Source of the DNA: an uncultured Acidimicrobiales bacterium
GTDB lineage: Bacteria; Actinomycetota; Acidimicrobiia; Acidimicrobiales; AC-14
Length of the DNA: 37,508 nt
Direction: 5' to 3'
Assembly (NCBI GenBank): GCA_902805665.1
Contig: CADCTB010000227.1
Coordinates: 1 to 37,508, forward strand
The position numbers and the translations under genes were made by a program. This document shows, piece after piece, positions 15,475 to 34,039 of this stretch (position 1 is the first letter of the stretch; each line of letters begins with the position of its first letter). Below the pieces are notes generated by a model. It did not search any database and was not told the DNA's origin. It saw only the letters and a list, made by a program, of their open reading frames with translations.

Positions 15475-15489
15475 GGGAGACAACCGCCC

Positions 15490-18963: not shown

Positions 18964-20525
18964 TCGCCCAGTTGGATCCCATCAACCTGCCCCACGTCGA
19001 GTGGAGCCTGCTGGCCCCCGAGCTGATCCTGATCGGCGGCGCCCTGGCCCTGCTCATGGCCGGCACGTTCCGGCGGGACCGCACCATGGCCACCGCGTCC
19101 TGCATCTTCACCGTGGCGGCGGCGCTTGCCGCCCTCGTCGCCTCGTGGGGGATCTGGCAGGACGTCGGCGGAGGTCGCGGCGGCGCCCGGCTGGCCGTTT
19201 CCGACGCGGTGGTGATCGACGGGTTCGCCATCTTCTTCACCGTCGTCATGTGCATCGCGGTCGCCCTGGGCGCCCTGCTGGCCCACGGCTACCTACGCCA
19301 GGAGAAGCTCGAGGCGCCGACGTTCTACGTCCTCATGATGCTGTCGGCGTCGGGTGGCGTGCTCATGGCCAAGGCCAACGACCTGATCCTCATCTTCCTG
19401 GGCCTCGAAATCCTCTCCATCGCCCTGTACGTGCTCGCCGGCTACCACCAGCGCCGGGACGAGTCACGGGAGGCGGCGATCAAGTACTTCGTCCTGGGCT
19501 CCTTCTCCTCGGCCTTCTTCCTGTACGGCGTCGCCCTCACCTATGGCGCCACCGGGTCCACCAACCTCGGCTTCATCGCCGAGTTCCTGGGCACTCAGAC
19601 GGTGACGGGCGGCGTCCTGCTCGGAGGCTTTGCGTTCCTGCTCGTCGGGCTGGGCTTCAAGGTGGCGGCCGTGCCGTTCCACATGTGGACGCCCGACGTC
19701 TACCAGGGCGCGCCCACGCCGGTGACCGGGTTCATGGCCGCCGCGGCCAAGGCCGCCGGGTTCGCCGCGCTGCTGCGTATCTTCTTCTCCGCCTTCGGCA
19801 CCGAGCAGCTCGACTGGAAGCCCATCGTGTGGGCCCTGGCCGTGCTGAGCATGGTGGTGGGATCGGTGCTGGCCGTCGTCCAGAGCGACGTGAAGCGCAT
19901 GCTGGCGTACTCCTCGATCAGCCACGCCGGCTACGTCCTGATCGGTCTCCAGGCGGCGAACGACAGAGGCATCGCCGGGTCGCTCTTCTACCTCCTGGCC
20001 TACACCTTCCTGATCGTCGGCAGCTTCGCCACCGTGGCCATCGTCAGCCGCAAGGGGGACCGCCGCACGGGGCTCGAGGCCTACCGCGGCCTGGCCCGCG
20101 ACCGGCCCGGCCTGGCCTTTGCCTTCACCGTCTTCCTCCTGGCCCAGGCCGGCGTCCCGTTCACGTCCGGGTTCCTCGCCAAGTTCTACGTGATCTCCGC
20201 CGCGGTGGAGGCCCGCTCATACGCCATCGCCGTCATCGCCATGCTGGCGTCCGTGGTCGCCGCCTTCTTCTACCTGCGGCTGATCGTGGTGATGTACATG
20301 GGCGAGGACCAGGTCATGGCCGGGGTGGGCCCGGAGACGAGCACGGCCGGCGACGGAGCGGAGGCCGGCGGCGGGGGAGTCCTGACTGCGGTGGCGACGA
20401 GGGTCCACGTGCCCGCGGCTGCGGCACTAGCCATCGGGCTGTGCCTGGCTTTCACCATCGGCGCCGGGCTGCTGCCTCAGCCGGTCATCGACTTCGCCCG
20501 CCACGCCACGCTCCTTCGGCTCTGA
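18960..20525 (+). CDS. nuoN: NADH-quinone oxidoreductase subunit N (set 1)
   Basis: A 521-residue NuoN (ND2 homologue), the third antiporter-like subunit. Signature stretches are GLEILSIALYVLAGY (with the conserved Glu), AAIKYFVLGSFSSAFFLYG, FKVAAVPFHMWTPDVYQGAPT (pump Lys and the usual VYQGAPT) and MLAYSSISHAGY. A hydrophilic Gly-rich loop (TSTAGDGAEAGGGG) lies before the last helix. It is the last gene of set 1. Its stop codon is the first triplet of the tandem repeat, which can fold strongly and may end or process the transcript. Confidence 0.95.
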   Translation: MIAQLDPINLPHVEWSLLAPELILIGGALALLMAGTFRRDRTMATASCIFTVAAALAALVASWGIWQDVGGGRGGARLAVSDAVVIDGFAIFFTVVMCIAVALGALLAHGYLRQEKLEAPTFYVLMMLSASGGVLMAKANDLILIFLGLEILSIALYVLAGYHQRRDESREAAIKYFVLGSFSSAFFLYGVALTYGATGSTNLGFIAEFLGTQTVTGGVLLGGFAFLLVGLGFKVAAVPFHMWTPDVYQGAPTPVTGFMAAAAKAAGFAALLRIFFSAFGTEQLDWKPIVWALAVLSMVVGSVLAVVQSDVKRMLAYSSISHAGYVLIGLQAANDRGIAGSLFYLLAYTFLIVGSFATVAIVSRKGDRRTGLEAYRGLARDRPGLAFAFTVFLLAQAGVPFTSGFLAKFYVISAAVEARSYAIAVIAMLASVVAAFFYLRLIVVMYMGEDQVMAGVGPETSTAGDGAEAGGGGVLTAVATRVHVPAAAALAIGLCLAFTIGAGLLPQPVIDFARHATLLRL

Positions 20526-20624
20526 GCGAGCACGCCGGCCGGGCCGACCGGCCATGCCGGAGCACGGCGGAGGTCCCCGCCGGTCGGCCCTCGTGGGCCG
20601 GCGAGCGCAGCGACCCCGAGACAC
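20523..20624. repeat. Structured 102-bp repeat, copy B1
   Basis: First of two near-identical tandem units; begins at the nuoN stop codon. Outer stem GCCGGCC (20534-20540) with GGCCGGC (20596-20602). Middle stem GGGCCGACCGGC (20541-20552) with GCCGGTCGGCCC (20579-20590), a perfect 12 bp. Conserved box GAGCGCAGCGA at 20603-20613. It could act as a terminator or stability element after set 1. Confidence 0.9.
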
Positions 20625-20726
20625 TGAGCGAGCACGCCGGCCGGGCAGACCGGCCATGCCGGAGCACGGCGGAGGTCCCCGCCGGTCGGCCCTCGTGGGC
20701 CGGCGAGCGCAGCGACCCGAAGACAC
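20625..20726. repeat. Structured 102-bp repeat, copy B2
   Basis: Directly follows copy B1 with the same 102-base period. By eye the differences are one base in the left arm of the middle stem (C to A, giving an A.G mismatch at the point where copy A also has a mismatch) and a few near the right end. The following bases start another TGAG, then the similarity stops. Confidence 0.9.
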
Positions 20727-20796
20727 TGAGCCGGAGAATGGGTTTTCGGGTGCTGCGGCCGGTACCATCGCCGCACTGTCGAGCAGAGGCACCAGA

Positions 20797-21000
20797 ATGT
20801 CGGTAGGAGATATGCGACGAGTGGACGATCATCGGGTGGATACAGGCGCCCGTATGCAGGTCGACGCCGACGGCGCCCGGTACTCGGTGCGCTGCTCGTG
20901 CGGTTGGAGCAGCGAGCCGTCCGTCACTGCAGTGCTGGCCGAGGCCGCCGGTGAGCAGCACCGGACCCTCTCCGAGACCCGTCGCCCGCACCGTCACTGA
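20797..21000 (+). CDS. Small CSCGW-motif protein (67 residues), unknown function
   Basis: A short hydrophilic protein with YSVRCSCGWSSEPSVTAVLAEAAGEQH. Small actinobacterial proteins with a CSCGW turn followed by a helix and EH are common; they look like half of a zinc ribbon, but only two Cys and several His are present, so metal binding is uncertain. I chose the ATG at 20797 because AGAGG lies 7 bases upstream; a second ATG at 20812 is possible. A longer frame that begins inside the tandem repeat (20554) is rejected, since its N terminus would simply be translated repeat. The gene sits between the two nuo sets and may be unrelated to respiration. Confidence 0.6.
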   Translation: MSVGDMRRVDDHRVDTGARMQVDADGARYSVRCSCGWSSEPSVTAVLAEAAGEQHRTLSETRRPHRH

Positions 21001-21037
21001 CCCGCCGGTGAACTCGGCACTTTCCGACGACCTTCGT

Positions 21038-21043
21038 TAGGAT
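21038..21043 (+). promoter_or_regulatory. -10 box of a leaderless promoter for nuoA (set 2)
   Basis: TAGGAT followed by 6 bases and the ATG of nuoA at 21050, an ideal leaderless arrangement. No Shine-Dalgarno sequence precedes the ATG. It would drive nuoABCD of set 2, separately from set 1. Confidence 0.55.
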
Positions 21044-21049
21044 CACTTC

Positions 21050-21415
21050 ATGTCCGAGTTTCTCCGCCAGTACCTGACCGTCGCCATCTTCGGCGGCGCC
21101 GCGGTGCTCATGGTCGGGGCGATGCTCGGCATGGGAAGCCTGTTGCGGCCCACCCGCCCACAGCCCGGCAAGTACATCAACTACGAGAGCGGCGTGGACC
21201 CGGTCGGCAGCGGCTGGTCGCAGAGCCAGATCCGGTATTACGTGTTCGCCCTGCTCTTTGTGATGTTCGACGTGGAAGCGGTCTTCATCTTCCCGTGGGC
21301 CGTCCGGCTCGAGGAGCTTGCCGTTTTCGGGCTCGTCGAGATGGGCATCTTCGTCGTCATCCTCGCCCTCGGCCTGCTCTACGCGTGGCGCAAGGGCGTT
21401 CTTCGTTGGGTCTAG
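21050..21415 (+). CDS. nuoA: NADH-quinone oxidoreductase subunit A (set 2; only copy here)
   Basis: A 121-residue NuoA (ND3 homologue) with three membrane helices. The loop after the first helix reads YINYESGVDPVGSG; it has Ser where mitochondrial ND3 has the switch Cys, as in E. coli. The second helix FALLFVMFDVEAVFIFPWAV with its acidic residues is diagnostic. It starts at the probable transcription start. It is the only nuoA in the window although two complex I sets are present, so set 1 must borrow it, have its own elsewhere, or be incomplete. Confidence 0.95.
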   Translation: MSEFLRQYLTVAIFGGAAVLMVGAMLGMGSLLRPTRPQPGKYINYESGVDPVGSGWSQSQIRYYVFALLFVMFDVEAVFIFPWAVRLEELAVFGLVEMGIFVVILALGLLYAWRKGVLRWV

Positions 21416-21432
21416 AAGGAGTGCACCACTAG

Positions 21433-21945
21433 ATGGGCCTGGTCGAGAAGGGCACGTTCGCCAAGCCCTCCATGAAGCCGCTGACGTGGCTGCTCAACTA
21501 CAGCCGCAAGTACTCCCTGTGGGTGTACCAGTGGGGCCTGGCCTGCTGCGCCATCGAGATGGGGGCCGCGTTCGGCTCCCCCCGCTACGACGTGATGCGA
21601 CTGGGCGTGATCCCCTTCCCGGCCGGGCCCCGCCAGGCCGACCTGGTGGTCGTGTCCGGCACGGTCACCGACAAGATGGCGCCCGCCATCCGTCGCCTCT
21701 GGGAGCAGATGCCCGACCCCAAGTACGTGATCTCCATGGGCTCGTGCGCCAACTGCGGCGGCCCCTACTGGGACTCCTACTCGGTCACCAAGGGCATCGA
21801 CCAGATCATCCCGGTCGACGTCTACGTGCCCGGTTGCCCGCCCCGGCCCGAGGCGCTGCTCGAGGGCATCGTGCTCCTCCAGGAGCGCATCCAGAAAGAG
21901 GACATGGCGGAGCGCTGGCGAGGGGAGCCGATTGTCGTCCGCTGA
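21433..21945 (+). CDS. nuoB: NADH-quinone oxidoreductase subunit B (set 2; only copy here)
   Basis: A 170-residue NuoB (PSST homologue) that binds the terminal cluster N2. The ligands are C38 and C39 (GLACCAIEM), C105 ([10 protein letters not shown]) and C135 ([11 protein letters not shown]). C108 is an extra Cys where E. coli has Ser. The ATG at 21433 has GAAGGAG about 10 bases upstream, a good ribosome site. The 3' end overlaps nuoC by 14 bases. Electrons reach quinone only through N2, so the presence of a single nuoB for two nuoD genes is notable. Confidence 0.96.
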
Positions 21946-22708
21946 CGTTCCCCCGGCGGCACAGTCCCCTTCGGGCGACACCGGAGCGTCGACGGTCACC
22001 GACGACCGCCACCAGGCGCTGCTCGAAGACCTCACCACCCGCCTCGGCGACGCCGTGGTCGGCTCGCACGTCGGCAACGGTGACCTCTGGGTCCGTGTCC
22101 GGCCCGACGCCTGGGTGCGCGCCGCCCAGGAGTGCAAGGCCATGGGCTTCGACTACTTCTGCTACCTGTCGGGCATCGACTGGATGCCCCACACCTGGCC
22201 GAACCCCAAGGTGATCGAGGCCCCCGGGGTAGTCGACAACGAGAACGCAGGCGACGATGCCGACGCCTCGCCCCAGGAGGCCGAGGCCGGCTTCGAGTCC
22301 GACGAGCCCGCCGGCGACGGTGCGATCGTCACCGGATTCGCCGGCGGCGACACCCGCTTCCAGGTCCTGGCCCGGCTGTACTCGACCATCCGCCACATCG
22401 GTGTCACCTTCAAGGCCGACCTCGACGACGAGACGCCGCGCATCCAGACCTGGACGGGCGAGTACCCCGGTGCCGACTGGTGCGAGCGGGAGACCTCGGA
22501 GATGTTCGGCTTCGACTTCGACGGCCATCCCAATCTGATCAAGCTCTACCTCCCCGGTGAGTTCGAGGGCTTCCCGCTGCGCAAGGACTTCCCGCTCCTG
22601 GCCCGTGAAGTGAAGCCCTGGCCGGGCCTCGTCGACGTTGAGCTGTTCCCTGCGTCATACGAGGACCCAGCGGAGGCAGCCACTCCCGCCGCAGAGGAAG
22701 GCGCCTGA
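21932..22708 (+). CDS. nuoC: NADH-quinone oxidoreductase subunit C (set 2)
   Basis: A 258-residue NuoC, about 90 residues longer than NuoC1. The C-terminal signature is [17 protein letters not shown], then [17 protein letters not shown]; the usual Tyr-Asp before MFG is Ser-Glu here. Between the two halves of the domain (roughly residues 95-140) lies an acidic, disordered-looking insert ([19 protein letters not shown]). Residues after [12 protein letters not shown] form an extra acidic tail. The start is TTG 21932 with AGGGGAG 4 bases upstream, inside the end of nuoB. The TGA overlaps the nuoD ATG (TGATG). Confidence 0.93.
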
Positions 22709-23877
22709 TGGCCGTCGCCGACCAGCAACGGATCTCCTACATCGCCTCGCAGGCGGCCGACGTCCGGCTCAACGTCGAGCTGCAGACCGAGGAGATGACC
22801 CTCAACCTCGGGCCGCAGCACCCGGCGACGCACGGCACCCTGCGGATCATCGCCCGCCTCGACGGCGAGCAGGTGGTCAAGGCCGATGTGGTCTGCGGCT
22901 ACATGCACCGGGGCTACGAGAAGCTGGTCGAGGTCCGGACCTATCCGCAGATCAACACCCTCATCAACCGGATCGACTGGCTGTCGTCCTTCGCCAACGA
23001 GGTCCCGTTCATCCTCGCCGCCGAGCAGCTCATGGAGGTGGAGGCGCCACCGAGGGCCCAATGGATCCGCACCCTCTTCTTCGAGCTCAGCCGCATCGCC
23101 AACATCACCCTCTTCATCGGCGAGATGGGCGTGCAGCTCGGCGCCATCACCCCCGTCTTCTTCGCCTTCCGCGACCGTGAGTACGTGCTCAACCTGATCG
23201 AGGAGGCCACCGGCGGGCGGTTCCACCCCAACTTCGACCGCATCGGTGGCATCAAGGACGACCTGCCCAAGGGCTGGATCTCCGAGACCAAGGACGCCAT
23301 GCGGCGCATCCGCGGGTACTGCGACCAGCTCGAGGACCTGCTCATGGGCAGCGAGATCTTCGAAGCCCGTACCCGCGGCGTCGGCGTCATCCCGGCCGAC
23401 GTCGGGCTGTCCTACGGCCTCTCGGGCGCCAACATCCGGGCCAGTGGCGTCGACTGGGACCTCCGCCGAGACGCACCCTCCCCGCTGGCGTGGAAAGAGC
23501 TCGACTGGAAGGTCTGGACCCACCCCGACGGCGACTCCTTCGCCCGCTACTGGGTCCGCCTGCAGGAGACCCGCGAGGCCACGCTCATGGTCGACCAGCT
23601 CCTCGACGGCCTCCCGTCCGGTCCCATCCAGGCCAAGGTGCCCCGCATCATCAAGGTGCCCGCCGGCGAGGCGTGGGCCCACACCGAGAACCCCCTGGGC
23701 GAGATGGGCTACTACGTCGTCAGCCAGGGCGGGCTCGGCCCCTTCCGGGTGAAGATCCGGTCCGCCTCGTTCCACAACATCTCGATCGTGCCGTGGCTGC
23801 TCAAGGGCGTCTACGTGCCCGACATCATCACGATCCTGGCCAGCCTCTACTTCATCCTCGGGGATATCGACCGCTAG
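22708..23877 (+). CDS. nuoD: NADH-quinone oxidoreductase subunit D (set 2)
   Basis: A 389-residue NuoD. It has GPQHPATHG (residues 35-43), TYPQI at the quinone-Tyr segment, and the terminal FILGDIDR. Residue 68 is Arg in GYMHRGYEKL, matching the Arg of mitochondrial NDUFS2 that is symmetrically dimethylated by NDUFAF7; NuoD1 has Thr there. The two NuoD proteins differ throughout, for example RIDWLSSFANEVPFILAAEQL here against RMDYISPLFMELVFSLATEKL, so they are not a recent duplication. The gene is followed by a gap with a new promoter in front of nuoH instead of nuoEFG. Confidence 0.95.
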   Translation: MAVADQQRISYIASQAADVRLNVELQTEEMTLNLGPQHPATHGTLRIIARLDGEQVVKADVVCGYMHRGYEKLVEVRTYPQINTLINRIDWLSSFANEVPFILAAEQLMEVEAPPRAQWIRTLFFELSRIANITLFIGEMGVQLGAITPVFFAFRDREYVLNLIEEATGGRFHPNFDRIGGIKDDLPKGWISETKDAMRRIRGYCDQLEDLLMGSEIFEARTRGVGVIPADVGLSYGLSGANIRASGVDWDLRRDAPSPLAWKELDWKVWTHPDGDSFARYWVRLQETREATLMVDQLLDGLPSGPIQAKVPRIIKVPAGEAWAHTENPLGEMGYYVVSQGGLGPFRVKIRSASFHNISIVPWLLKGVYVPDIITILASLYFILGDIDR

Positions 23878-23923
23878 CCGTGCCCTGCTTCACCGGCGTT
23901 GGCGTGCACACAAGACCCGTTAC

Positions 23924-23929
23924 TAGTCT
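23924..23929 (+). promoter_or_regulatory. -10 box upstream of the nuoH2 mini-ORF
   Basis: TAGTCT, then 7 bases, then a GTG at 23937 opening a 9-codon ORF that ends on the nuoH start. TTGGCG at 23899-23904 could be a weak -35, though 19 bases away. This would allow nuoHIJKLMN of set 2 to be transcribed without nuoABCD. Confidence 0.45.
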
Positions 23930-23936
23930 CCTGCCC

Positions 23937-23966
23937 GTGCAGACCCCGGGGGCGGTGCGCTCATGA
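23937..23966 (+). CDS. Leaderless 9-residue upstream ORF of nuoH (set 2)
   Basis: Reads MQTPGAVRS and stop, with GTG as the start. The TGA (23964-23966) overlaps both possible nuoH starts, ATG 23963 (ATGA) and ATG 23966 (TGATG). The layout repeats that found before nuoE: TAGnnT, 7 bases, start, about 10 codons, overlapping stop and start. Translation is inferred from this repeated geometry. Confidence 0.4.
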   Translation: MQTPGAVRS

Positions 23967-24991
23967 TGTTCGCGCTCGAGCTCCCCTACTGGCAGCTGAC
24001 GATCATCAAGACGGTGATCGTGCTGTCGATCATCCCGGCCGGCGCAGTCATCCTGGGCTACGTCTTCCTGCTCAAGATGATGGCCCACATGCAGAGCCGG
24101 ATGGGGCCCATGGAGCCCGGCGGCTTCCACGGCTGGTTCCAGCTCATCGGCGACGGGATCAAGTTCATCCAGAAGGAGGACATCATCCCGGCACAGGCCG
24201 ACCGGCGGGTGTTCGCCCTGGCCCCGCTCGTCGTCCTCATCTCCACCTTCCTGCTGTACGTGGTCGTCCCCGCCGGCCCCCGGCTGGTCGTCCAGGACCT
24301 CGACGTCGGCATCTTCTACGCCCTCGCCGTGTCATCGCTGGGCGTCATCGGCGTGCTCATGGCCGGCTGGGCCTCGGCCAACAAGTACGCCCTTCTGGGG
24401 TCCTTGCGGGCCGCCGGCCAGCTGATCGCCTACGAGCTGCCGCTGGTGCTCGCGGTGGTCGGCGTGGTCATCCAGGCCAACACCATGAGCCTGCAGGGCA
24501 TCGTCCATGCCCAGGCCGACGGCGCCATCTTCGGCATCTCCTGGATCGGGAACCCGTTCATCCTCACCCAGATCGTGGGTTTCGGCGTGTTCCTGGCCGC
24601 CGCCCAGGCCGAGCTGACCCAGACGCCCTTCGACATGCCAGTCGCCGAGTCGGAGCTGGTCGCCGGCTTCATGACCGAGTACTCGGGGTTCCGCTTCCTC
24701 TTCTTCTTCATGGCGGAGTTCGGCACCGCGTTCGCCCTGTCGGCCATCGCCGCCACCCTCTACTTCGGCGGCTGGTACCAGCCCTTCTTCGAGACCGGCA
24801 TCCTGGCCGACATCCTCGGGCCGGTGGTCCTCGGGATCAAGGTGATGCTCATCGCCTTCCTCATCTTCTGGATCCGTTTCACGTTCCCGCGTTTTCGCGA
24901 AGACCAGCTCCAGGCCTTCGCCTGGAAGTTCCTCATCCCCATCTCCCTCGTCAACATCATGGCGACCGCGGTCTTCAAGGTGGTGCTGTGA
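23963..24991 (+). CDS. nuoH: NADH-quinone oxidoreductase subunit H (set 2)
   Basis: A 342-residue NuoH. GDGIKFIQKEDIIPAQADRR is conserved. The second key loop reads AELTQTPFDMPVAESELVAG, then MTEYSGFRFLFFFMAEF. The usual motif is E-x-x-R-x-P-F-D; here residue 220 is Gln, a rare change near the quinone tunnel, while NuoH1 has Arg224. The start is ATG 23963 or 23966; both overlap the stop of the upstream 9-codon ORF. There is no Shine-Dalgarno of note, which fits reinitiation. The nuoH TGA overlaps a GTG that opens a 55-codon bridging ORF to nuoI. Confidence 0.94.
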   Translation: MMFALELPYWQLTIIKTVIVLSIIPAGAVILGYVFLLKMMAHMQSRMGPMEPGGFHGWFQLIGDGIKFIQKEDIIPAQADRRVFALAPLVVLISTFLLYVVVPAGPRLVVQDLDVGIFYALAVSSLGVIGVLMAGWASANKYALLGSLRAAGQLIAYELPLVLAVVGVVIQANTMSLQGIVHAQADGAIFGISWIGNPFILTQIVGFGVFLAAAQAELTQTPFDMPVAESELVAGFMTEYSGFRFLFFFMAEFGTAFALSAIAATLYFGGWYQPFFETGILADILGPVVLGIKVMLIAFLIFWIRFTFPRFREDQLQAFAWKFLIPISLVNIMATAVFKVVL

Positions 24992-25155
24992 ATCGCCGTC
25001 GCAACCAGAAGTTGCTCGGCGAGGCAGCTGCGCTCCCGGCGGCCGGCGGAGCCGGCCACCCCTCGCCCTGTTCTCTCCGGCCGGCAGCCGGAGGGGCCGC
25101 CTGCGGCGGCACCGACGTCCGCCGGCATGAAATCCCCGTAGAGGTGAATCTCTAA
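24988..25155 (+). CDS. Bridging ORF nuoH-nuoI (55 residues, set 2)
   Basis: The GTG at 24988 overlaps the nuoH TGA (GTGA), and the ORF's TAA (25153-25155) overlaps the nuoI ATG (TAATG). The peptide begins [20 protein letters not shown], is Gly/Ala-rich in the middle where the DNA forms hairpins, and ends EIPVEVNL. I recognise no family. It could be a real small protein or an open path for ribosomes across a structured spacer. Confidence 0.35.
25018..25110. repeat. Row of hairpins in the nuoH-nuoI spacer
   Basis: GGCGAGG (25018-25024) pairs with CCTCGCC (25061-25067) and encloses GGCCGGC-GGA-GCCGGCC (25041-25057). Then come CTCCGGC (25075-25081) with GCCGGAG (25087-25093), and GCCGCC-TGC-GGCGGC (25096-25110). 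The nested outer and inner stem recalls the structured repeat at 15063 and 20523, but the sequence is not clearly the same. Confidence 0.6.
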
Positions 25156-25640
25156 TGCCCGAACTTCCCGGACTCGCCAAGGGTCTCGGCATCACGTTCA
25201 AGACCATGATCAACACCTGGACCAAGGGTGCGGTCACGGTCCAGTACCCGCACGAGAAGGAAGACCTGGCTCCTCGGACCCGGGGCGTCATCGCCCTGAA
25301 GGAGGAGAACTGCACCGTCTGCATGCTCTGTGCCCGGGAGTGCCCCGACTGGTGCATCTACATCGAGGGCCACAAGGAGAAGCGCCCGCCGCGCCGTGAG
25401 GGCGGCAAGCCCCGCACGGTGAACGCGCTCGACCGTTTCGACATCGACTACGCGCTCTGCATGTACTGCGGGATCTGCGTGGAGGTGTGCCCGTTCGACG
25501 CCCTGTTCTGGACACCGGAGTACGAGTACTCCGAGTCCAAGCTCGCCGACCTCCTGCACGACAAGGACCGTCTCGGCGAATGGATGGTCACCGTCCCTGA
25601 TCCCCCTGCCCTCGAGGCCGGGGCGGTCAAGAAGAAGTAG
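25155..25640 (+). CDS. nuoI: NADH-quinone oxidoreductase subunit I (set 2)
   Basis: A 161-residue NuoI with two intact [4Fe-4S] motifs: [15 protein letters not shown] and [12 protein letters not shown]. The N terminus [19 protein letters not shown] is the membrane-lying helix. A hydrophilic stretch rich in Lys and Arg ([15 protein letters not shown]) separates the two motifs. It lacks the long Lys-rich tail of NuoI1 and ends AGAVKKK. In set 2 it would be the outermost iron-sulfur subunit, because nuoE, F and G are absent, so an external donor could dock here. The ATG overlaps the TAA of the bridging ORF and has AGAGG upstream. Confidence 0.94.
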
Positions 25641-25660
25641 CAGGAGCTAGCGTCCCCGCG

Positions 25661-26152
25661 ATGGTGGCCCAGAACATCGTCTTCGGCATCCTCGCCGTGG
25701 TCATGGTGGCCGCCGCGTTCCGGTTGGTCACCACCCAGAACGTCGTGCGGGCCGCCCTGTTCCTGGCCGTTGTCCTGGCCGGAGCGGCCGGGCTCTACAT
25801 CCTCCTCGCCGCCGAGTTCGTGGCATGGGTCCAGGTCCTCGTCTACATCGGCGCCGTCGTCGTGCTCCTGCTGTTCGGCGTCATGCTCACCCGGGCCCCG
25901 ATCGGGCGGGAGGGCGACCTCGACAACGACCAGCGCCTCCTCGGCGCACTCGTCGCCCTGTTCCTGCTCGGCGCCCTCGGCGCCGTGCTCCTCGACGCCT
26001 TCGGCGACCAGAAGGTGGGCACCATCAACATCCGGCGCACCGCCGAGGTCAGCGACTCCCTCTTCGGTACCTACGTGATCCCGTTCGAAGTGGTTTCCAT
26101 CCTGCTGCTGGCCGCCCTGGTGGGTGCCGTCGCCCTGGCCCGGAGGGACTAG
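25661..26152 (+). CDS. nuoJ: NADH-quinone oxidoreductase subunit J (set 2)
   Basis: A 163-residue NuoJ (ND6 homologue). The third helix, WVQVLVYIGAVVVLLLFGVML, with the family's V-Y-x-G-A motif is clear. Five membrane segments are predicted. The loop before the last helix reads DQKVGTINIRRTAEVSDSLFGTY, with an NIRRTAEVSDSLFG stretch typical of shorter, ancestral-type NuoJ. It starts 20 bases after nuoI with CAGGAG upstream, and nuoK follows after 6 bases. Confidence 0.93.
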   Translation: MVAQNIVFGILAVVMVAAAFRLVTTQNVVRAALFLAVVLAGAAGLYILLAAEFVAWVQVLVYIGAVVVLLLFGVMLTRAPIGREGDLDNDQRLLGALVALFLLGALGAVLLDAFGDQKVGTINIRRTAEVSDSLFGTYVIPFEVVSILLLAALVGAVALARRD

Positions 26153-26158
26153 GAGCCC

Positions 26159-26458
26159 ATGTACCTGAACCAGTTCCTGCTGCTGGCCGCCATCCTGTTC
26201 TGCCTGGGCGTCTACGGGGTCCTGGCCCGCAAGAACGCGGTGCTGGTGCTGATGTCCATCGAGCTCATGCTCAACGCGGTGAACATCAACCTGATCGCCT
26301 TCGGCGCCTTCCGCGACAACGTCATCGGTCAGGTGTTCTCGCTGTTCGTCATCGCCATCGCCGCCGCCGAAGTCGGCGTGGGTCTGGCCATCGTCCTGCT
26401 CATCTTCCGCAACCGGGCCGACATCGACCTCGACGAGCTCGCGCAGATGAAGGGCTAG
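26159..26458 (+). CDS. nuoK: NADH-quinone oxidoreductase subunit K (set 2)
   Basis: A 99-residue NuoK (ND4L homologue), three membrane helices, with the two conserved glutamates in [13 protein letters not shown] and [11 protein letters not shown]. The start is clean: ATG six bases after the nuoJ stop, with TAGGAGCCC between them providing the ribosome site. NuoL follows after 13 bases. Confidence 0.95.
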
Positions 26459-26471
26459 GACCGCCGCTCCC

Positions 26472-28439
26472 ATGCTGGACAACGCCTGGCTCATCCCGCT
26501 CATCCCCGCTGTCTCCTTCTTCGTCATCCTGTTCTTCGGGAAGCGCCTGCCCAAGAAGGGCGCCGAGGTCGGCATCGCCGCCCTCACCGCCTCCTTCGTC
26601 CTGTCCCTCCTCACCGCCATCGAGTGGACCGGCGAGCACGTGCCCCGCCATGCGGTGCACCGCCACACCACCTGGTTCGAGATCGGCGGGATCGACTTCG
26701 GGGCCGGCATCCACGTCGACGGGCTGACGGTGATGATGCTGGTGGTCGTCACCTTCATCTCACTGATGGTGCACGTGTACTCCACCGGCTACATGGACGG
26801 TGACCGGCGCTACACCTACTTCTTCGCCGCCCTCTCGCTGTTCACGGCGGCCATGCTCCTGCTGGTCGTCTCCGACAACACCCTGCAGCTCATGATCGGC
26901 TGGGAGCTCGTCGGCCTGTGCTCGTTCATGCTCATCGGGCACTGGTGGGAGGAGGGGGTCAACTCCGGCGCCGCCATCAAGGCCTTCATCACCACCCGTA
27001 CCGGCGACATCGGACTGATGACCGGCATCATCCTCCTCTTCTTCGCTGCCGGTCGGACGTTCGACATCGAGGCCCTGAACCGGGAGGCGCTCACCGGCGG
27101 CATCGGCCACGGCACCCTGCTCATCGGCGCCTCCCTGCTCTTCCTCGGCGTCATGGGCAAGAGCGCCCAGTTCCCCCTGCACGTCTGGCTGCCCGACGCC
27201 ATGGCCGGCCCCACCCCGGTGTCGGCCCTGATCCACGCCGCCACCATGGTCGTGGCCGGCGTCTACCTGGTCGCCCGCCTGTACGGCGTGTTCTTCGCCG
27301 GCTTCTCCATCGAGGTGGGCGGCACCAACCTGGTGGCCATCATCGGGGCGATCACCGTGCTGATCGCCGCCCTCCTCGCGTTCGTGCAGGACGACGTCAA
27401 GAAGGTGCTGGCCTACTCGACGGTCAGCCAGCTGGGCTACATGATCATGGCCCTCGGGGTCGGGGCGTGGACGGCGGCGGTGTTCCACCTCTTCACCCAC
27501 GCATTCTTCAAGGCCCTGCTGTTCCTCGGCTCCGGCTCGCTGATCCACGCCGTGCACTCCAACAACATGAGCGATATGGGGGGCCTGCGGAAGTTCATGC
27601 CCACCACCTTCTGGACCTTCATGGTCGGCTCGGTGGCCCTGGCGGGCATCTTCCCACTGGCCGGCTTCTGGTCGAAGGACGAGATCCTGCTCGGCGCAGC
27701 GGAGGACGGATACCCCATCATGCTCGTCGTGGGTCTCATCGGGGCCTTCATGACCGCGGCGTACATGACACGGGCGTGCTACCTCATCTTCGCCGGCGAG
27801 TACCGGGGCCACGGCCATCCGCACGAGTCACCGCCGTCCATGGCCTGGCCACTTCGCATCCTGGCCGTGCCAGCCGCGTTGGCGGGTCTGCTCAATGCTC
27901 CCGGGATCCTCCTTTTCAACGGGTGGGTTGAGTTCGAGGTGGAGGGGGTCGAGCACTTCCTCGAACACCATGACTTCAACCCGATGCTGGCCGCGGGGTC
28001 GGTCGGCGTCGCCCTCCTCGGGGTCGCCGCCGCCGCGGCCTACTACTACCGCGGCGCCTTGAACGGTCTCGCCGACCGGGTGCCGCCGCTGCGCACCGCA
28101 CACCGGGTCATCGTGAACAAGTACTACCTCGACCACCTGTTCCTGGGAATCATCCGGGCGATCCAGTACCCGGTGGCCCGGGCCGCCTACTGGGTCAACC
28201 AGCACGTGCTCGACGGCGTGGTCAACGGAGTGGGCAAGGCGGCCCAGCGCACCGCCCAGGTGGCCTACGACGTCATCGACCAGCGGGTCATCGACGGGGC
28301 AGTGAACGGCGCCGGCCTGTCGGCGGAGGAGGGCGGGAGCATCCTGCGCCACCTCCAGACAGGGAGGGTGCAGCAGTACGCAGCGCTGTTGTTCGGCGCA
28401 GTTGCGGTCTTGGCGATGGGCCTCGTGGTCCTGACGTGA
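26472..28439 (+). CDS. nuoL: NADH-quinone oxidoreductase subunit L (set 2)
   Basis: A 655-residue NuoL (ND5 homologue). Conserved features are LMIGWELVGLCSF, GKSAQFPLHVWLPDAMAGPT with PVSALIHAATMV, and VKKVLAYSTVSQLGYM. The C-terminal lateral-helix region contains two similar segments, DGVVNGVGKAAQ and DGAVNGAGLSAE. It lacks the His-rich insert of NuoL1 and has a hydrophilic GHGHPHESPPS stretch instead. The stop is followed by 33 bases to the nuoM GTG, in which a 7-codon ORF lies. Confidence 0.95.
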   Translation: MLDNAWLIPLIPAVSFFVILFFGKRLPKKGAEVGIAALTASFVLSLLTAIEWTGEHVPRHAVHRHTTWFEIGGIDFGAGIHVDGLTVMMLVVVTFISLMVHVYSTGYMDGDRRYTYFFAALSLFTAAMLLLVVSDNTLQLMIGWELVGLCSFMLIGHWWEEGVNSGAAIKAFITTRTGDIGLMTGIILLFFAAGRTFDIEALNREALTGGIGHGTLLIGASLLFLGVMGKSAQFPLHVWLPDAMAGPTPVSALIHAATMVVAGVYLVARLYGVFFAGFSIEVGGTNLVAIIGAITVLIAALLAFVQDDVKKVLAYSTVSQLGYMIMALGVGAWTAAVFHLFTHAFFKALLFLGSGSLIHAVHSNNMSDMGGLRKFMPTTFWTFMVGSVALAGIFPLAGFWSKDEILLGAAEDGYPIMLVVGLIGAFMTAAYMTRACYLIFAGEYRGHGHPHESPPSMAWPLRILAVPAALAGLLNAPGILLFNGWVEFEVEGVEHFLEHHDFNPMLAAGSVGVALLGVAAAAAYYYRGALNGLADRVPPLRTAHRVIVNKYYLDHLFLGIIRAIQYPVARAAYWVNQHVLDGVVNGVGKAAQRTAQVAYDVIDQRVIDGAVNGAGLSAEEGGSILRHLQTGRVQQYAALLFGAVAVLAMGLVVLT

Positions 28440-28472
28440 GGGAGTCTCAGAAACGATGTTGACCATGAAGCC

Positions 28473-30002
28473 GTGCTGACCGCTGCCATCTTCCTGCCCA
28501 TCGTGGGCGCCGCGCTCCTGGCGCTCATCCCGCGTGAGCGGGAGGAGATGCTCAAGGCCGTCGCCCTGGTGGTGACGCTGGCCACTGCGGTGGTCGGGCT
28601 CTCGCTGCTCTTCGGGTTCGACTACGACGACGCCGGACGCCTCCAGTACGAGACCAACCACGGCTGGATCGACGTCATCAACAGCCGCTACCACATAGGC
28701 ATCGACGGCATCTCCCTGCCGCTGCTGATCCTGTCGATGGTGATCACCGTGCTGTGCGTCATCTACTCCTGGGACCACTTTCCTGAGCCGCACAACCCAA
28801 AGGCGTTCCTCATCCTGATGCTCGTGCTCGAGACGGGCATGAACGGCACCTTCGCCGCCCAGGACCTCATCCTGTTCTTCGTCTTCTTCGAGCTGGTCCT
28901 GCTGCCGATGTACTTCATGATCGGCGTGTGGGGCGGCCCGAACCGCCAGTACGCGGCGATCAAGTTCTTCCTGTACACGCTCTTCGGGTCGGCGCTGATG
29001 ATCCTGAGCTTCCTGGCCCTGTACTTCAAGGGCGGTCAGACCTTCGACATCCCGCTGCTCATCGAGCAGGGCGGCGCCATCGCCCACGGCACCCAGCTGC
29101 TGATCTTCGGCGGCCTGTTCATGGGCTTCGCCATCAAGGTGCCGATGTTCCCGTTCCACACCTGGCTGCCCGACGCCCACACCGAGGCGCCGACGGTGGG
29201 CTCGGTGATCCTTGCCGCCGTCCTGCTGAAGCTCGGCACCTACGGGTTCATCCGCATCGCCATCCCGATCCTTCCCGAGGCGGCCCGGTCATGGGCCCCG
29301 TGGATAGGCCTCCTCGCCGTCATCGGGATCATCTACGGAGCGCTCGGCTGCCTGGCCCAGCGCGACATGAAGCGCCTCATCGCCTTCTCGTCGGTGGCCC
29401 ACATGGGGTTCGTGATGCTCGGCGTCGCCACCCTGACGAGCTTCGGCATCAACGCCGCGGTGTTCGGCATGGTGGCCCACGGCCTCATCACCGGGATGCT
29501 CTTCTTCCTCGCCGGCTCGATCCAGGAGCGCTTCGGCACCCGTGAGCTGGCCCGCCTCGGCGGCCTGCTGTTGCAGGCGCCGCGCATGGGCTGGATCCTC
29601 GGCTTCTGCGTCTTCGCCTCACTCGGGCTCCCCGGCCTCGCCGGGTTCTGGGGCGAGTTCCCCGCCATCCTCTCGGCCTACGAGCCGGCCCAGGGGCTGA
29701 GCCAGCTCACGTTCCGGATCTACATGGCGGTGGCCGCCATCGGCACCGTGTTCGCCGCCGGCTACCTGCTGTGGATGCTCCAGCGGGTGGCGTTCGGCAC
29801 GGTCAAGCCGGAGTTCGAGAACGCGCACGTCCACGACGTGCACATCCCCGAGTACATCGCCTGGGCGCCCCTGCTCATCGGCATCCTCCTCTTCGGCATC
29901 TTCCCGCACCTGCTGTTCAACGTGATCGACCCGGCAGTGGGGGCGGTCACGTCCGGAGTGGACGCCATCGGGGCCGCGGCCGCCGCCGGCGGCGGGAGGT
30001 AG
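28473..30002 (+). CDS. nuoM: NADH-quinone oxidoreductase subunit M (set 2)
   Basis: A 509-residue NuoM (ND4 homologue), with VFFELVLLPMYFMIGVWG (conserved Glu), FAIKVPMFPFHTWLPDAHTE (pump Lys) and CLAQRDMKRLIAFSSVAHMG. The GTG at 28473 gives MLTAAIFLPIVGAA, the normal NuoM N terminus. An ATG at 28456 in another frame opens a 7-codon ORF (MLTMKPC) whose stop overlaps the nuoM start by 7 bases. The C-terminal end is Gly/Ala-rich (GAAAAAGGGR). Confidence 0.95.
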   Translation: MLTAAIFLPIVGAALLALIPREREEMLKAVALVVTLATAVVGLSLLFGFDYDDAGRLQYETNHGWIDVINSRYHIGIDGISLPLLILSMVITVLCVIYSWDHFPEPHNPKAFLILMLVLETGMNGTFAAQDLILFFVFFELVLLPMYFMIGVWGGPNRQYAAIKFFLYTLFGSALMILSFLALYFKGGQTFDIPLLIEQGGAIAHGTQLLIFGGLFMGFAIKVPMFPFHTWLPDAHTEAPTVGSVILAAVLLKLGTYGFIRIAIPILPEAARSWAPWIGLLAVIGIIYGALGCLAQRDMKRLIAFSSVAHMGFVMLGVATLTSFGINAAVFGMVAHGLITGMLFFLAGSIQERFGTRELARLGGLLLQAPRMGWILGFCVFASLGLPGLAGFWGEFPAILSAYEPAQGLSQLTFRIYMAVAAIGTVFAAGYLLWMLQRVAFGTVKPEFENAHVHDVHIPEYIAWAPLLIGILLFGIFPHLLFNVIDPAVGAVTSGVDAIGAAAAAGGGR

Positions 30003-30011
30003 GCGGCCGCA

Positions 30012-31499
30012 ATGCCGTTCACCCCCCCCAGCCTCGACTATCACGCGCTCGCGCCGGAGATCATCCTCACCGTCGTGCTCGCCATCGTGCTGGTGGCCGA
30101 CCTGTTCCTCGACACGTCGCGCAAGTGGCTCCTGTCCAACATCGCCGCCTTCGGCCTGGTGGCGGCCATGGTGCCGATCCTGTCCCTGGCCCTGTCGGGT
30201 GACGACGTCCGCTCGATGGTCGGCGGCGCGTACGTCGTCGACAACTTCGCCCTGGTCCTCAAAGCCCTGTTCCTCGGCACGGGCTTCGTCGTCCTGCTCA
30301 TGTCGATCAACTACGTCGAGGACGGCGACTACTACGAGGGCGAGTTCTACTTCCTCCTGCTCTGCTCGCTGTTGGGCATGGTGGTCATGTCGTCGTCGCG
30401 TGACCTCATCACCATCTTCGTCGCCCTCGAGACGCTCTCCATCCCCGCCTACATGCTCGCCGGCTGGCGGAAGCGTGACCTGAAGAGCAACGAGGCGTCG
30501 CTCAAGTACTACCTGCTGGGGGTGCTGGCCTCGGCGGTCATGCTCTACGGCATGTCGCTGATCTACGGCTTCACGGGCACCACCGTGCTGGCCGACATCG
30601 GCGAGCAGATGAACGGCAGCGCGGCCGAGCAGCCGCTGGTCACGATGGCCATCGTGTTCATCATCGTCGGGTTCGCCTTCAAGGTGTCCGCCGTCCCGTT
30701 CCACTCATGGGCTCCCGACACCTACGAGGGCGCGCCGACCCCCGTGACGGCGTTCCTGTCGGTCGCGTCGAAGACCGGCGGCTTCGTCGCCCTGCTCCAG
30801 CTGATCTTCGTCGGGTTCTTCGGCCGGGACGACGTGTGGGGCCCGATGTTCGGCATCCTCGCCGCACTGACCATGACGGTCGGCAACCTGATCGCACTTC
30901 GTCAGACCAACATCGTCCGCATGCTGGCGTACTCGTCCATCGCCCAGGCCGGCTACATCCTGGTTCCCTTCGCCATCGCCGGCTCGAACGAAGGCGCCGC
31001 CGCGCAGAGCGCGTTCACCGCGTCGGTGGTCTACCTGCTCGTCTACGCGGCGATGAACCTCGGCGTCTTCGCCATCGTCATCGCCGTGGCCCGCAAGACC
31101 CGCTCGGGTGAGATCACGTCCTACGGCGGGCTGTACGAGTACGCGCCGGGCCTCGCCGTCCTCATGACGATCTTCCTGTTCTCGCTGGCGGGCATCCCTC
31201 CCCTTGCCGGGTTGTGGGCCAAGCTCTTCATCTTCCGGGCCGTGCTCGACGCCGGCACCGCGTGGGCGTTGCTGCTCGGCGTGGTGGCCGCCGTCAACTC
31301 GGTGATCGCGCTGTTCTATTACGCGGCGGTGGCCCGGGAGATGTGGATGAGCCCGGTGCCCGACGGCGACCGCACCCCCATCCGGGTGCCGGCGCCGCTC
31401 ATCACGGCCCTGGGCATCACCGCCGCAGTCGTGGTCGTCGTCGGCGTGTACCCCCAGGCCTTCGCCAACTTCGGGGACCTGGCGTCGCTGGTTCCCTAG
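30012..31499 (+). CDS. nuoN: NADH-quinone oxidoreductase subunit N (set 2)
   Basis: A 495-residue NuoN (ND2 homologue): ALETLSIPAYMLAGW (conserved Glu), ASLKYYLLGVLASAVMLYG, FKVSAVPFHSWAPDTYEGAPT (pump Lys and TYEGAPT) and MLAYSSIAQAGY. It begins 9 bases after nuoM and is the last gene of set 2. Its stop codon TAG lies inside the left arm of a 16-bp inverted repeat whose right arm covers the first codons of the downstream methyltransferase gene. Confidence 0.95.
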   Translation: MPFTPPSLDYHALAPEIILTVVLAIVLVADLFLDTSRKWLLSNIAAFGLVAAMVPILSLALSGDDVRSMVGGAYVVDNFALVLKALFLGTGFVVLLMSINYVEDGDYYEGEFYFLLLCSLLGMVVMSSSRDLITIFVALETLSIPAYMLAGWRKRDLKSNEASLKYYLLGVLASAVMLYGMSLIYGFTGTTVLADIGEQMNGSAAEQPLVTMAIVFIIVGFAFKVSAVPFHSWAPDTYEGAPTPVTAFLSVASKTGGFVALLQLIFVGFFGRDDVWGPMFGILAALTMTVGNLIALRQTNIVRMLAYSSIAQAGYILVPFAIAGSNEGAAAQSAFTASVVYLLVYAAMNLGVFAIVIAVARKTRSGEITSYGGLYEYAPGLAVLMTIFLFSLAGIPPLAGLWAKLFIFRAVLDAGTAWALLLGVVAAVNSVIALFYYAAVAREMWMSPVPDGDRTPIRVPAPLITALGITAAVVVVVGVYPQAFANFGDLASLVP

Positions 31500-31601
31500 G
31501 ACGCTGCTGATCTATCGCGCTGCGCCGGTGGCGACGCCTGCGTCGCCGCAGGTCAGCGCTTCGGGCCGCAGGCTCGACCTACGTTGATCAGCAGCGTCCT
31601 A
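31497..31601. repeat. Long nested inverted repeat between nuoN2 and midA
   Basis: TAGGACGCTGCTGATC (31497-31512) is perfectly complementary to GATCAGCAGCGTCCTA (31586-31601). Nested inside are GCGCTG (31517-31522) with CAGCGC (31554-31559), and GGCGACG-CCTG-CGTCGCC (31530-31547). The left arm contains the nuoN stop codon; the right arm overlaps the TTG start region of midA. It may be a terminator, an attenuator that hides the midA start, or a small mobile structured element. Confidence 0.85.
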
Positions 31602-32618
31602 GCGGAGCTGATCGCCGAGCGGGCCCGGCGCGAGGGCCCACTGGGGTTTGCAGATGTAGTCGAGACGGCGCTTTACCACCCGCGGCTCGGCTTCTACGAG
31701 GCGGGTGGGGCCGCGGGCCGGGGCGGCGACTTCCTGACCAGCCCCGAGGTCGGCCAATTGTTCGGGGCGGTGCTGGCCCGGGCCCTCGACTCGTGGTGGG
31801 TTGAGATGGGCCAGCCGTCCCCGTTCACCGTCGTGGAGGCGGGGGCGGGCCGGGGCGTCCTGGCGAAGGCAGTTCTCGCCGCCGCGCCGGCGTGCCGGCC
31901 CGCCCTGCGCTACGTGGCCGTCGAGCGGTCGAGTGCGCTGCGGGCGCAGTTGCCAGAGGGAGTGGAGCCGGCCGTCGTGATGCCGGAGCAGCCCTTCGTC
32001 GGCGTGGTCCTGGCCAACGAGCTGCTCGACAACCTCCCCTTCGGCCTGCTCGAGCGCCGGGCCGGCGGCTGGGCCGAGGTCCGAGTCACGGAGGCGCTGC
32101 TCGAGACGCTGGTGCCTGTCGACGATGGGGCCGAGAGCCGGCTGGCGCCCGACGCGCCGGTCGGAGGGCGCATCCCCACGCAGCGGGCGGCGTGCGCCTG
32201 GGTCGACCATGCCCGTGGGTTGGTGCAGGCCGGACGGGTGGTGGTCCTGGACTATGCGGACACGACGCCGTCGATGGCCCGCCGCCCATGGACGGAGTGG
32301 GTGCGCACCTACCGGGGGCACAGCCGAGGGCGGCCGCCTCTGGCCGACCTGGGAGGTCAGGACGTCACGTGCGAGGTGGCCGTCGACCAGCTGCCCGTAC
32401 CGTCGGCGGACCACAGCCAGACCGAGTTCCTGCGGGCCCACGGCATCGACGAGCTGGCGGCGGAGGCCGGGCAGGCGTGGCAGGAGCGAGCGCACATCGG
32501 GGACCTGCAGGCGCTGATGGCCCGCAGCCGGGCCAACGAGGCCGTCGCCCTCACCGATCCCACCGGCCTGGGCGCCTTCAGGGTGCTGGAGTGGGTGGCC
32601 TGCGGTCAGGGCCGGTAG
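31584..32618 (+). CDS. midA: MidA/NDUFAF7-family SAM-dependent methyltransferase
   Basis: A 344-residue class I methyltransferase of the MidA family. Visible hallmarks are LGFADVVETALYHPRLGFYE, GRGGDFLTSPEVGQLFG (residues 45-61), the SAM-binding VVEAGAGRG (83-91), VLANELLDNLPFG, and VVVLDYADTTPSMARRPW leading to RTYRGHSRG. In mitochondria NDUFAF7 dimethylates an Arg of NDUFS2 (NuoD) early in complex I assembly. Here the gene directly follows nuoN of set 2, whose NuoD has that Arg, so NuoD2 is the natural candidate substrate; this is inference. The start is TTG 31584, with no good ribosome site, inside an inverted repeat. The 3' end overlaps the convergent Kelch gene by 13 bases. Confidence 0.88.
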   Translation: MISSVLAELIAERARREGPLGFADVVETALYHPRLGFYEAGGAAGRGGDFLTSPEVGQLFGAVLARALDSWWVEMGQPSPFTVVEAGAGRGVLAKAVLAAAPACRPALRYVAVERSSALRAQLPEGVEPAVVMPEQPFVGVVLANELLDNLPFGLLERRAGGWAEVRVTEALLETLVPVDDGAESRLAPDAPVGGRIPTQRAACAWVDHARGLVQAGRVVVLDYADTTPSMARRPWTEWVRTYRGHSRGRPPLADLGGQDVTCEVAVDQLPVPSADHSQTEFLRAHGIDELAAEAGQAWQERAHIGDLQALMARSRANEAVALTDPTGLGAFRVLEWVACGQGR

Positions 32619-34039
32619 CGGACGCCCTCCGACGATGACGCGGGGGAGCTGACCACTACCAGGCCTCCCCACATCAGCATCCCTTCACCGTCCCAGACCG
32701 CGATGGGGAACCCACGGCCCAGCAGCGGCACCGGTTCCAGGGCCCGCCAGCGGTCAGTGGCCGGGTCGTAGGCCGCGCCGTCGTCCAGGGGTACCAGCAC
32801 CGTCCTGGGCTCGATGATCCGGTCGAGGGGTCCGCTGTCGACGGCGCCCGGCAGGCCGATGCCACCCCAGAGCACCAACTCGCGCCCGCTCCACACGGCG
32901 GCCGGGGCGGTGCGCGGCGTGAGCGGCGCGTCGGCCATCGGACGCCAGAGATCGCTGCCCGGGTCGTACGCGGCCCCGTCGTCGAGCAACCCACCGCCGC
33001 CGACGGTGTTGCCACCCCAGACCAGGAGCTCGCGCCCGGTCCACACCGACGCCGCGTCGTCACGCCCCGCCAGGGGAGAGGCGGCGATCGTGCGCCACCG
33101 GTTGGCGTCCGCGTCGTAGGCGGCACCGTCGCGGAGCTCCACCCCGGCGGCGACGTCGACCCCGCCCCAGACCACCATCTCCCGGCCCGTCCACGCCGTC
33201 ACCGCGCCCGAGCGCCGGCTGAGCGGGCCTTCGGCGATCGTCCGCCAGCGGTCGGCGCCCGGGTCGTACGCGGCCCCGTCCAGGAACGCGGCGTCGAGGT
33301 TGCCGCCTCCCCAGACCAGCAACTCGCGACCGGTCCACACCGATGACACGCCGTTGCGAGGAGCCAGAGGGCCGGCCGCCACGGGACGCCAGCGATCACG
33401 TGCCGGGTCGTACGCCGCCCCGTCGGCGAGGAACGCGTCAGCATCGACGCCGCCCCACACCACCATCTCGGTACCGGTCCAGGTGGTGGCGGCCGGGGCC
33501 CTCGCCGACAGTGGCGACGAGGGCAGCTTGCGCCAGGCGTCGGCCGACGGCGTGTATGCCGCACCGTCGGCCAGGTGGGGGGCGCGGAACGTGGGGCAGG
33601 CCGCGCCGGCGCAGTTCTCCCCGCCCCAGATCAACAGCTGCGATCCGGTCCAGACGTGGGCGGCGTGGTATCGCCCGCACAGGCCCGATGGCGACATCTC
33701 GGTCCAGTGCGGACCGCCCTGGGAACCGATCCCGACGTCGGGCGCCGTCTCCGTCGGGCACGGTGGCTTGGCCGGCTCACCCCGGCCGGTGGTCCGGACC
33801 AGCTGGATGAAGCCGGCGATGGCGACGAGAAGCAGGAGGCCACCCACGGCTTGGAACCGGCTCTTGCGGGGAGCGGCCGCCTTGGACGCGTGGTCGGGGC
33901 ACTTGAAGCCGACCTCGGTGCGGATGGCGCACGCCGGGCAGATCGGCGTGTCACAGGTGACGCAGGTGATGCGGGTCGGCTGGCCGTGGCGCTGGCAGGT
34001 CAGGCCCGCAGGCGCCGCCGGATCGCTGCCGCCTTCCAC
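32606..34039 (-). CDS. B-box-like zinc finger, one membrane helix and Kelch propeller protein
   Basis: A 477-residue protein. Residues 15-50 form a B-box-like zinc finger with C15, H18, C26, C29, C34, C37, C47 and H50. One membrane helix follows at about 64-81 (AVGGLLLLVAIAGFIQLV). The rest is a run of about seven Kelch-type repeats, each with a W(T/S)GxE(L/M)(L/V)VWGG strand and a later DGAAYDPxxDRWR segment, which would close a seven-bladed propeller outside the cell. Orientation is inferred: finger inside, propeller outside. I chose the GTG at 34039 because a TATCCT box (34053-34048) lies 8 bases upstream and because an ATG at 34105 would overlap acetyl-CoA synthetase. The function is unknown; the finger resembles those at the N terminus of actinobacterial rhomboid proteases. 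Confidence 0.8.
   Translation of the reverse strand: MEGGSDPAAPAGLTCQRHGQPTRITCVTCDTPICPACAIRTEVGFKCPDHASKAAAPRKSRFQAVGGLLLLVAIAGFIQLVRTTGRGEPAKPPCPTETAPDVGIGSQGGPHWTEMSPSGLCGRYHAAHVWTGSQLLIWGGENCAGAACPTFRAPHLADGAAYTPSADAWRKLPSSPLSARAPAATTWTGTEMVVWGGVDADAFLADGAAYDPARDRWRPVAAGPLAPRNGVSSVWTGRELLVWGGGNLDAAFLDGAAYDPGADRWRTIAEGPLSRRSGAVTAWTGREMVVWGGVDVAAGVELRDGAAYDADANRWRTIAASPLAGRDDAASVWTGRELLVWGGNTVGGGGLLDDGAAYDPGSDLWRPMADAPLTPRTAPAAVWSGRELVLWGGIGLPGAVDSGPLDRIIEPRTVLVPLDDGAAYDPATDRWRALEPVPLLGRGFPIAVWDGEGMLMWGGLVVVSSPASSSEGVRYRP

Follow-up and report, generated by a model that had tools for sequence, protein, structure and literature searches.

The palindrome between nuoN and midA of an uncultured Acidimicrobiales bacterium is very probably a MITE with IS1182-type ends

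Several short mobile elements and their partner insertion sequences bear on the locus described here. In Methanosarcina acetivorans, IS1182-derived MITEs of 160 and 169 bp are described, with ISMac2 as their partner (PMC3852290). RUP of pneumococcus is 107 bp long, uses TA as its target, is thought to be mobilised by IS630-Spn1 and occurs in 108 copies (PMC2229807). The Correia or NEMIS elements of Neisseria are 107 and 155 bp long, and the stem-loops in their transcripts are proposed to be cut by RNase III (PMC2229807). Among insertion sequences, IS1272 of the IS1182 family is reported to replace stem-loops without duplication (PMC5678879, PMC4923244), and IS5 has the target YTAR, which is CTAG at 15 of the 24 sites listed (PMC5493358).

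Here we describe a palindrome at the nuoN–midA junction of an uncultured Acidimicrobiales bacterium. It lies in a window of 37,508 nucleotides, the whole stretch of DNA that was analysed (contig CADCTB010000227.1, here C227). We are confident that it is a MITE with IS1182-type ends, inserted into a CTAG at the nuoN stop (CCC TAG) with duplication of TA. On this reading, what was supposed to be a regulatory hairpin results from transposition, for which a likely donor family, a target and an empty site can be named. The kind of element is ordinary, a MITE of a donor family with MITEs already reported in Methanosarcina (PMC3852290); among the titles and abstract openings listed in our literature searches, none reported an IS1182 MITE in Acidimicrobiia. 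Much of the worth of the case lies in an insertion that restores a stop codon. Features are listed in Table 1.

Table 1. Coordinates of the element and the adjoining genes, as positions in the window
Feature	Position	Strand	Remarks
TA target copy, left	31497..31498	.	part of CTAG 31496-31499; both congeners have one TA only at the empty site
MITE core, 101 bp, GGACGC...GCGTCC	31499..31599	.	103 bp net insertion relative to the empty sites
TA target copy, right	31600..31601	.	part of CTAG 31599-31602; evidence as for the left copy
Left terminal inverted repeat including TA	31497..31512	+	complement of 31586-31601; 15/16 to the left end of the G002 IS1182
Right terminal inverted repeat including TA	31586..31601	-	14/16 to the right end of the G002 IS1182
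Inner hairpin 1	31517..31559	+	predicted fold; shortened or missing in deleted copies
Inner hairpin 2	31561..31577	+	predicted fold
nuoN	30012..31499	+	ORF ending ...LASLVP*; Proton_antipo_M 1.8e-73; name nuoN from the earlier note
nuoN last codon TAG = target TA + element's first G	31497..31499	+	
midA, SAM-dependent methyltransferase	31584..32618	+	PF02636 2e-25, start scan; name midA from the earlier note

An earlier note on this DNA described an inverted repeat that begins at the nuoN stop, encloses two nested stems and differs from the 102-bp repeats of the window. All of this holds. The arm TAGGACGCTGCTGATC (31497-31512) is the exact complement of GATCAGCAGCGTCCTA (31586-31601); both are 16 bp long, the spacer between them is 73 nt and the whole element is 105 nt (31497-31601). 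Pairing grows to 17 when the adjoining C31496 and G31602 are counted, the TAG of nuoN occupies 31497-31499, and the predicted fold contains stems at 31517-31559 and 31561-31577. As RNA, the element folds at -72.1 kcal/mol, compared with a shuffle mean of -44.3 (sd 3.5; z -8.0), and none of 200 shuffles is equally stable. It is too short for a transposase, its 105 bp containing no ORF that reaches 80 aa, and its terminal inverted repeats are perfect. An Rfam scan of 31301-31800 gave nothing above threshold, the best score being 18.4 bits against a cut-off of 105.

Among the genome-wide BLAST candidates scored with the element (40 of 68), the window contig is listed only at 31497-31601. The 102-bp repeats (15062-15163, 20522-20623 and 20624-20725; two in tandem at 97%, one at 73%) begin at or near TGAGYGAGC and form a separate family unrelated to the MITE. 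Two other repeat groups occur in the window. Long coding-type repeats (D7, D11, D12, D14) lie about 11 kb apart within 14500-31500, an arrangement that would fit two complex I membrane gene sets, and tandem repeats of about 144-150 bp (D1, D6, D10) at 32842-33652 may be coding on the minus strand.

The earlier note proposed looking for an empty site in relatives. At the nuoN–midA junction, the element is absent from the precise site in both congeners (2/2). Their junctions read CGTTCCGTAGCGGAG (G002) and GGTTCCCTAACGGGC (G001), and the window reads GGTTCCC-TA-101 bp-TA-GCGGAG; in alignment, GTTCCC-TA-ACGG and GTTCCG-TA-GCGG stand against GTTCCC-TA[101 bp]TA-GCGG. The net insertion is 103 bp, which we read as duplication of TA around a 101-bp core. 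Because the empty site is precise in both congeners, we regard the element as a discrete mobile MITE; target duplication with an empty site is seen at this one locus, in two congeners. Joined flanks were also used to look for empty sites elsewhere: of the five loci typed, two were bridged by sequence from a congener, and neither showed a clean join. For the copies on contigs C189 and C120, the congeners lack the element yet are too diverged for placing the join.

Outer flanks of some copies are not CTAG on both sides: g-TA..TA-a on C120, c-TA..TA-a on C205 and c-TA..TA-c on C154. These flanks point to duplication of TA alone. Duplication of all 4 bp of CTAG is the less likely reading, as C120 (g-TAG..CTA-a), C205 and C154 agree better with a 2-bp TA duplication, although their flanks may have mutated. 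The ancestral target at the nuoN stop was presumably CTAG; the congeners read CTAA and GTAG.

Searching the genome for the arm, another check proposed earlier, revealed that the element is repeated and dispersed rather than unique to the nuoN–midA junction. The bacterium's own draft genome (3.52 Mb, 227 contigs) has nine copies with both arms, on nine contigs. This is a count of at least nine, and diverged copies may be missed, as the first 30 of 55 arm-like places (up to 3 mismatches) were examined; in the BLAST of the element against this genome, 40 of 68 first-look candidates were scored. Full copies of 105-106 bp with 87-100% identity are found in the window (C227) and on C12, C120, C108 and C143. 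The window, C12 and C120 copies are near-identical, and C143 (87% in the alignment) is an older one. Shorter, internally deleted copies occur on C154, C189, C36 and C205 (93, 85, 63 and 49 bp). C12 and C108 each have a changed TA at one of their ends, and the right end of C36 is decayed. C12 and C108 share 577 bp at 97.7%, including the element and about 470 bp of right flank, and their left flanks differ; the pair could represent a single site or a chimeric assembly, leaving possibly eight independent sites. C210 has a solo arm only (L024:1501-1516). Two convergent open frames, one with the Pfam hit AIRS and one with 3-dmu-9_3-mt, end within reach of this arm and overlap it.

Outside this genome, neither congener matched the element at E<=0.001, nor did any of 7 other members of the family. 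A search of 60 genomes returned the own genome and 6 weak partial matches (38-40 bits), with a full copy in none of those 6. Searching 397 genomes of the order for the arm with at most 1 mismatch gave matches in 23, with more than one match only in the own genome. A reversed control pattern matched 17 genomes among those listed, so most single arm matches are at chance level. Among 22 loci that were read, five had a second loose arm (up to 4 mismatches) facing inward 0.3-1.4 kb away, and two more had one in another orientation. An exact 28-base pattern had no match in genome-contig or viral-contig collections, and plasmid and phage collections gave none either; these collections may omit the own or very near genomes.

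For each of the nine copies, an open frame stops at the element or no more than about 5 bp away, a closeness that may mean little, open frames being cheap in GC-rich DNA. The genes beside the copies have Pfam support only for C227, C120, C189, C205 and the flank common to C108 and C12; C120 and C205 lie between convergent genes supported on both sides. Such positions would suit a dispersed transcription terminator or mRNA-processing hairpin, NEMIS- or REP-like and selected at gene ends. We think this unlikely: the window has no T-run after the stem, its copy lies between co-directional genes, four copies have lost some inner sequence and C36 lacks one end. The placement is also explained by the CTAG target. 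In the own genome, CTAG outside MITE sites ends a coding frame in 26 of 73 flanks, and in 13 of the 42 that are strongly coding; with CTAG so often at stops, the choice of target alone explains where the MITE is found.

The donor family of the MITE is indicated by its ends. Congener G002 carries an 1819-bp IS1182 element, inserted as c-TA..TA-g, that scores 279.6 bits with NF033551 (cut-off 270) and ends in TAGGACGCCGCTGATC/TAGGACCCTGCTGTTC. The MITE arms match these ends at 15/16 positions on the left and 14/16 on the right, and the insertion sequence with which they are shared is not resident. It was found through its left end, the lone G002 match of the arm scan; a protein identical to its own is on record from Acidimicrobiia bacterium isolate nzgw84 (JAHFUR010000003.1). 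Similarity between MITE and insertion sequence ends after the 16-bp termini: inner alignments were within the range of shuffles, of which 60 to 425 in 500 were as good across four comparisons, so the MITE is at most a candidate internal-deletion derivative of IS1182. The own assembly contained no IS1182 transposase (search at E<=1e-20; NF033551 at E<=0.01), and we infer the donor family from the congener's element, not from the own genome. The parent transposase may have belonged to an insertion sequence since lost or missed in the assembly, or may have been supplied from outside.

Of 16 IS1182 loci scored within the order, five (L146, L153, L152, L150, L157) lacked a convincing TA-TA end pair, which the other 11 possessed. 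Together with three extra copies, from genome G040, of an insertion sequence already in the set, these 11 make 14 insertions, all c-TAG...CTA-g, seven of the 14 coming from G040. A second set, of named relatives, comprised 80 loci, of which 76 were scored, four cut by contig ends being left out. A TA-TA pair (at least 12/16) was found in 65 and none in 11. Without L202, a g...g pair among the 65 that was judged spurious, 64 remain, and 63 of these have c...g flanks, giving CTAG; TA in the ends was the chosen criterion, and the flanking c and g were not required. At least three loci look common to both sets. The named relatives are mostly from Actinomycetota, with a few metagenome bins labelled otherwise, and many relatives share the end motif TAGGA..CTGCTGA. 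One metagenome contig labelled Chloroflexi (L174) has an IS1182 transposase 95% identical to that of the Acidimicrobiia congener, by transfer or misbinning.

Duplication of TA gave us the first idea that the parent was IS630, as for RUP. An IS630/Tc1-mariner parent, of the kind known for RUP or for other TA-duplicating elements, fits the duplication, and an intact IS630-family gene is resident (C135:3505-3942, NF033545 136 bits). Its ends, TAGTGCCGTGACCGGG, agree with the MITE at 6/16 positions, the left end being compared, and are thus other ends than those of the MITE, which tells against the resident element; the IS1182 ends agree far better, with their motif shared by many relatives. This origin is very improbable. 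The resident transposase (G000, L120:828-2072; 377 aa) has ends CTAGTGCCGTGACC and is also in a CTAG context.

Insertion of a MITE with IS1182-type ends into CTAG has a particular consequence at stop codons. CTAG reads TAG on both strands, and each element end starts with G, so that insertion at a TAG or TAA stop gives TAG. CTAG is scarce in GC-rich genes. The window has 13 CTAG words, two of these made by the element, against a Markov expectation of 33; by the ORF list, an open reading frame stops within those at 21412, 23874, 26149, 26455 and nuoN. The element supplies the stop of a Pfam-supported gene at four of its nine copies: nuoN (C227), a methyltransferase (C120), a NifU-domain gene (C189) and, on C205, two convergent genes, a response regulator and a Na+/H+ antiporter on the other strand.

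IS1182 relatives are also often found at stops. Once duplicates were taken out, 136 of their flanks remained, and in 50 of these the TAG is the in-frame end of the best coding frame. For strongly coding flanks the figure is 27/52, compared with 5/40 for background CTAG in their own host flanks (Fisher 7.2e-5). Against a background pooled from the window and the relatives' loci (26/130 strong, 64/388 all) the values are 4.9e-5 and 3.1e-6, and with own-genome loci added to the pool (35/157 and 84/439) they are 9.6e-5 and 4.3e-5; in these statistics the flanks on either side of one insertion depend on each other, and the coding score is a simple GC3-GC2 measure. Against the own-genome background alone the IS1182 figure is not significant (p 0.06), and this high background weakens any case for a preference that goes further than the target word. 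If harmless insertions were the ones to survive, the stop-codon excess would look just as it would under a true preference. From 26 in-frame ORFs at IS1182 insertions, 10 of the 11 best-scoring were scanned; nine had a Pfam hit, and in five the hit ends within 3, 4, 4, 7 and 16 residues of the TAG. We tentatively propose, as a possibility we rate below even, that the IS1182 elements found in Actinomycetota belong, together with their MITEs, to a stop-codon-safe lineage, in which a CTAG target and G-starting ends restore TAG on both strands and leave neighbours intact. The pattern suggests simple harm avoidance, by a target word that often ends GC-rich genes combined with stop-restoring ends. 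None of the titles and abstract openings listed in our literature searches reported IS1182 targeting stop codons.

The first in-frame ATG, GTG or TTG of midA is TTG 31584-31586, which lies within the element and is the only canonical start nearby. The earlier note held that, if the stem forms in mRNA, the start is buried in it and midA translation would depend on ribosomes finishing nuoN. The first claim stands in part: the TTG is in the element, but the free-RNA model leaves the first two of its bases largely unpaired (0.79, 0.96, 0.01). The second finds no support, as the same arms occur at unrelated loci and a modelled ribosome on the stop does not free the start. When a footprint at the nuoN stop (31474-31511, chosen by us) was blocked in the model, the TTG and the downstream CTG/ATC became less accessible, not more (TTG unpaired 0.05, 0.14, 0.00; CTG/ATC 0). 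An evolved translational switch, with a hairpin that hides the midA start until a ribosome finishing nuoN opens it, would account for a very stable stem with the nuoN stop region at one foot and the midA start region at the other, and for an element that contains the sole nearby canonical start, but is scarcely credible when the same arms recur at unrelated loci, the congeners lack the element and the blocked fold frees neither TTG nor CTG/ATC. Because copies at unrelated loci carry the same arms, the hairpin is better seen as a consequence of transposon ends.

In both congeners the midA frame directly follows the nuoN stop at the empty junction, and the insertion therefore pushed the two apart; at the empty junction the two genes may be coupled. 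The midA frame (31584-31613) also directly follows nuoN in several relatives (L068, L079, L070). Starts of midA were read in 14 relatives (of 30 loci) with hand-picked anchors, G032 being set aside with its anchor out of frame. In three of the 14 (G034, G003, G027), no ATG, GTG or TTG occurs from the last in-frame stop up to the conserved body; in G027 a GTG follows 66 nt downstream. On the upstream side, the first canonical start is met at 156 nt in G002 and at 237 nt in G001; on the downstream side, G002 also has GTGs at 54 and 57 nt. The midA start may be non-standard, and the TTG of the element may be a new one.

Taken together, the empty sites, the copies and the similarity of the ends indicate that a MITE jumped into the presumed CTAG of the nuoN stop and duplicated TA. 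As read in the sequence, TA and the first G of the element remake TAG, keeping the nuoN coding sequence and stop whole. The insertion was probably tolerated as the target word there is a stop codon, and the hairpin is a by-product of inverted ends. As for midA, the event moved its body 103 bp away from the nuoN stop and introduced a TTG that may be used as a start.

Compared by description, the element resembles the M. acetivorans MITEs in being short and non-coding, with inverted ends and an assigned IS1182 partner; it differs in its host (Acidimicrobiia), its 101-bp core, its 14-bp arms beyond TA and the lack of a resident partner (PMC3852290). It is like RUP in size, TA target, intergenic position and a link to an insertion sequence through the terminal repeats, but the partner here is IS1182 rather than IS630 and there are nine copies rather than 108 (PMC2229807). 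With Correia/NEMIS, as described, it shares the hairpin MITE form and the occurrence of a shorter and a longer form, known here from DNA alone (PMC2229807). IS1272 has a transposase of the same family, whereas here TA is duplicated within CTAG (PMC5678879, PMC4923244). IS5 shares its preference for CTAG with the IS1182 relatives analysed here (PMC5493358).
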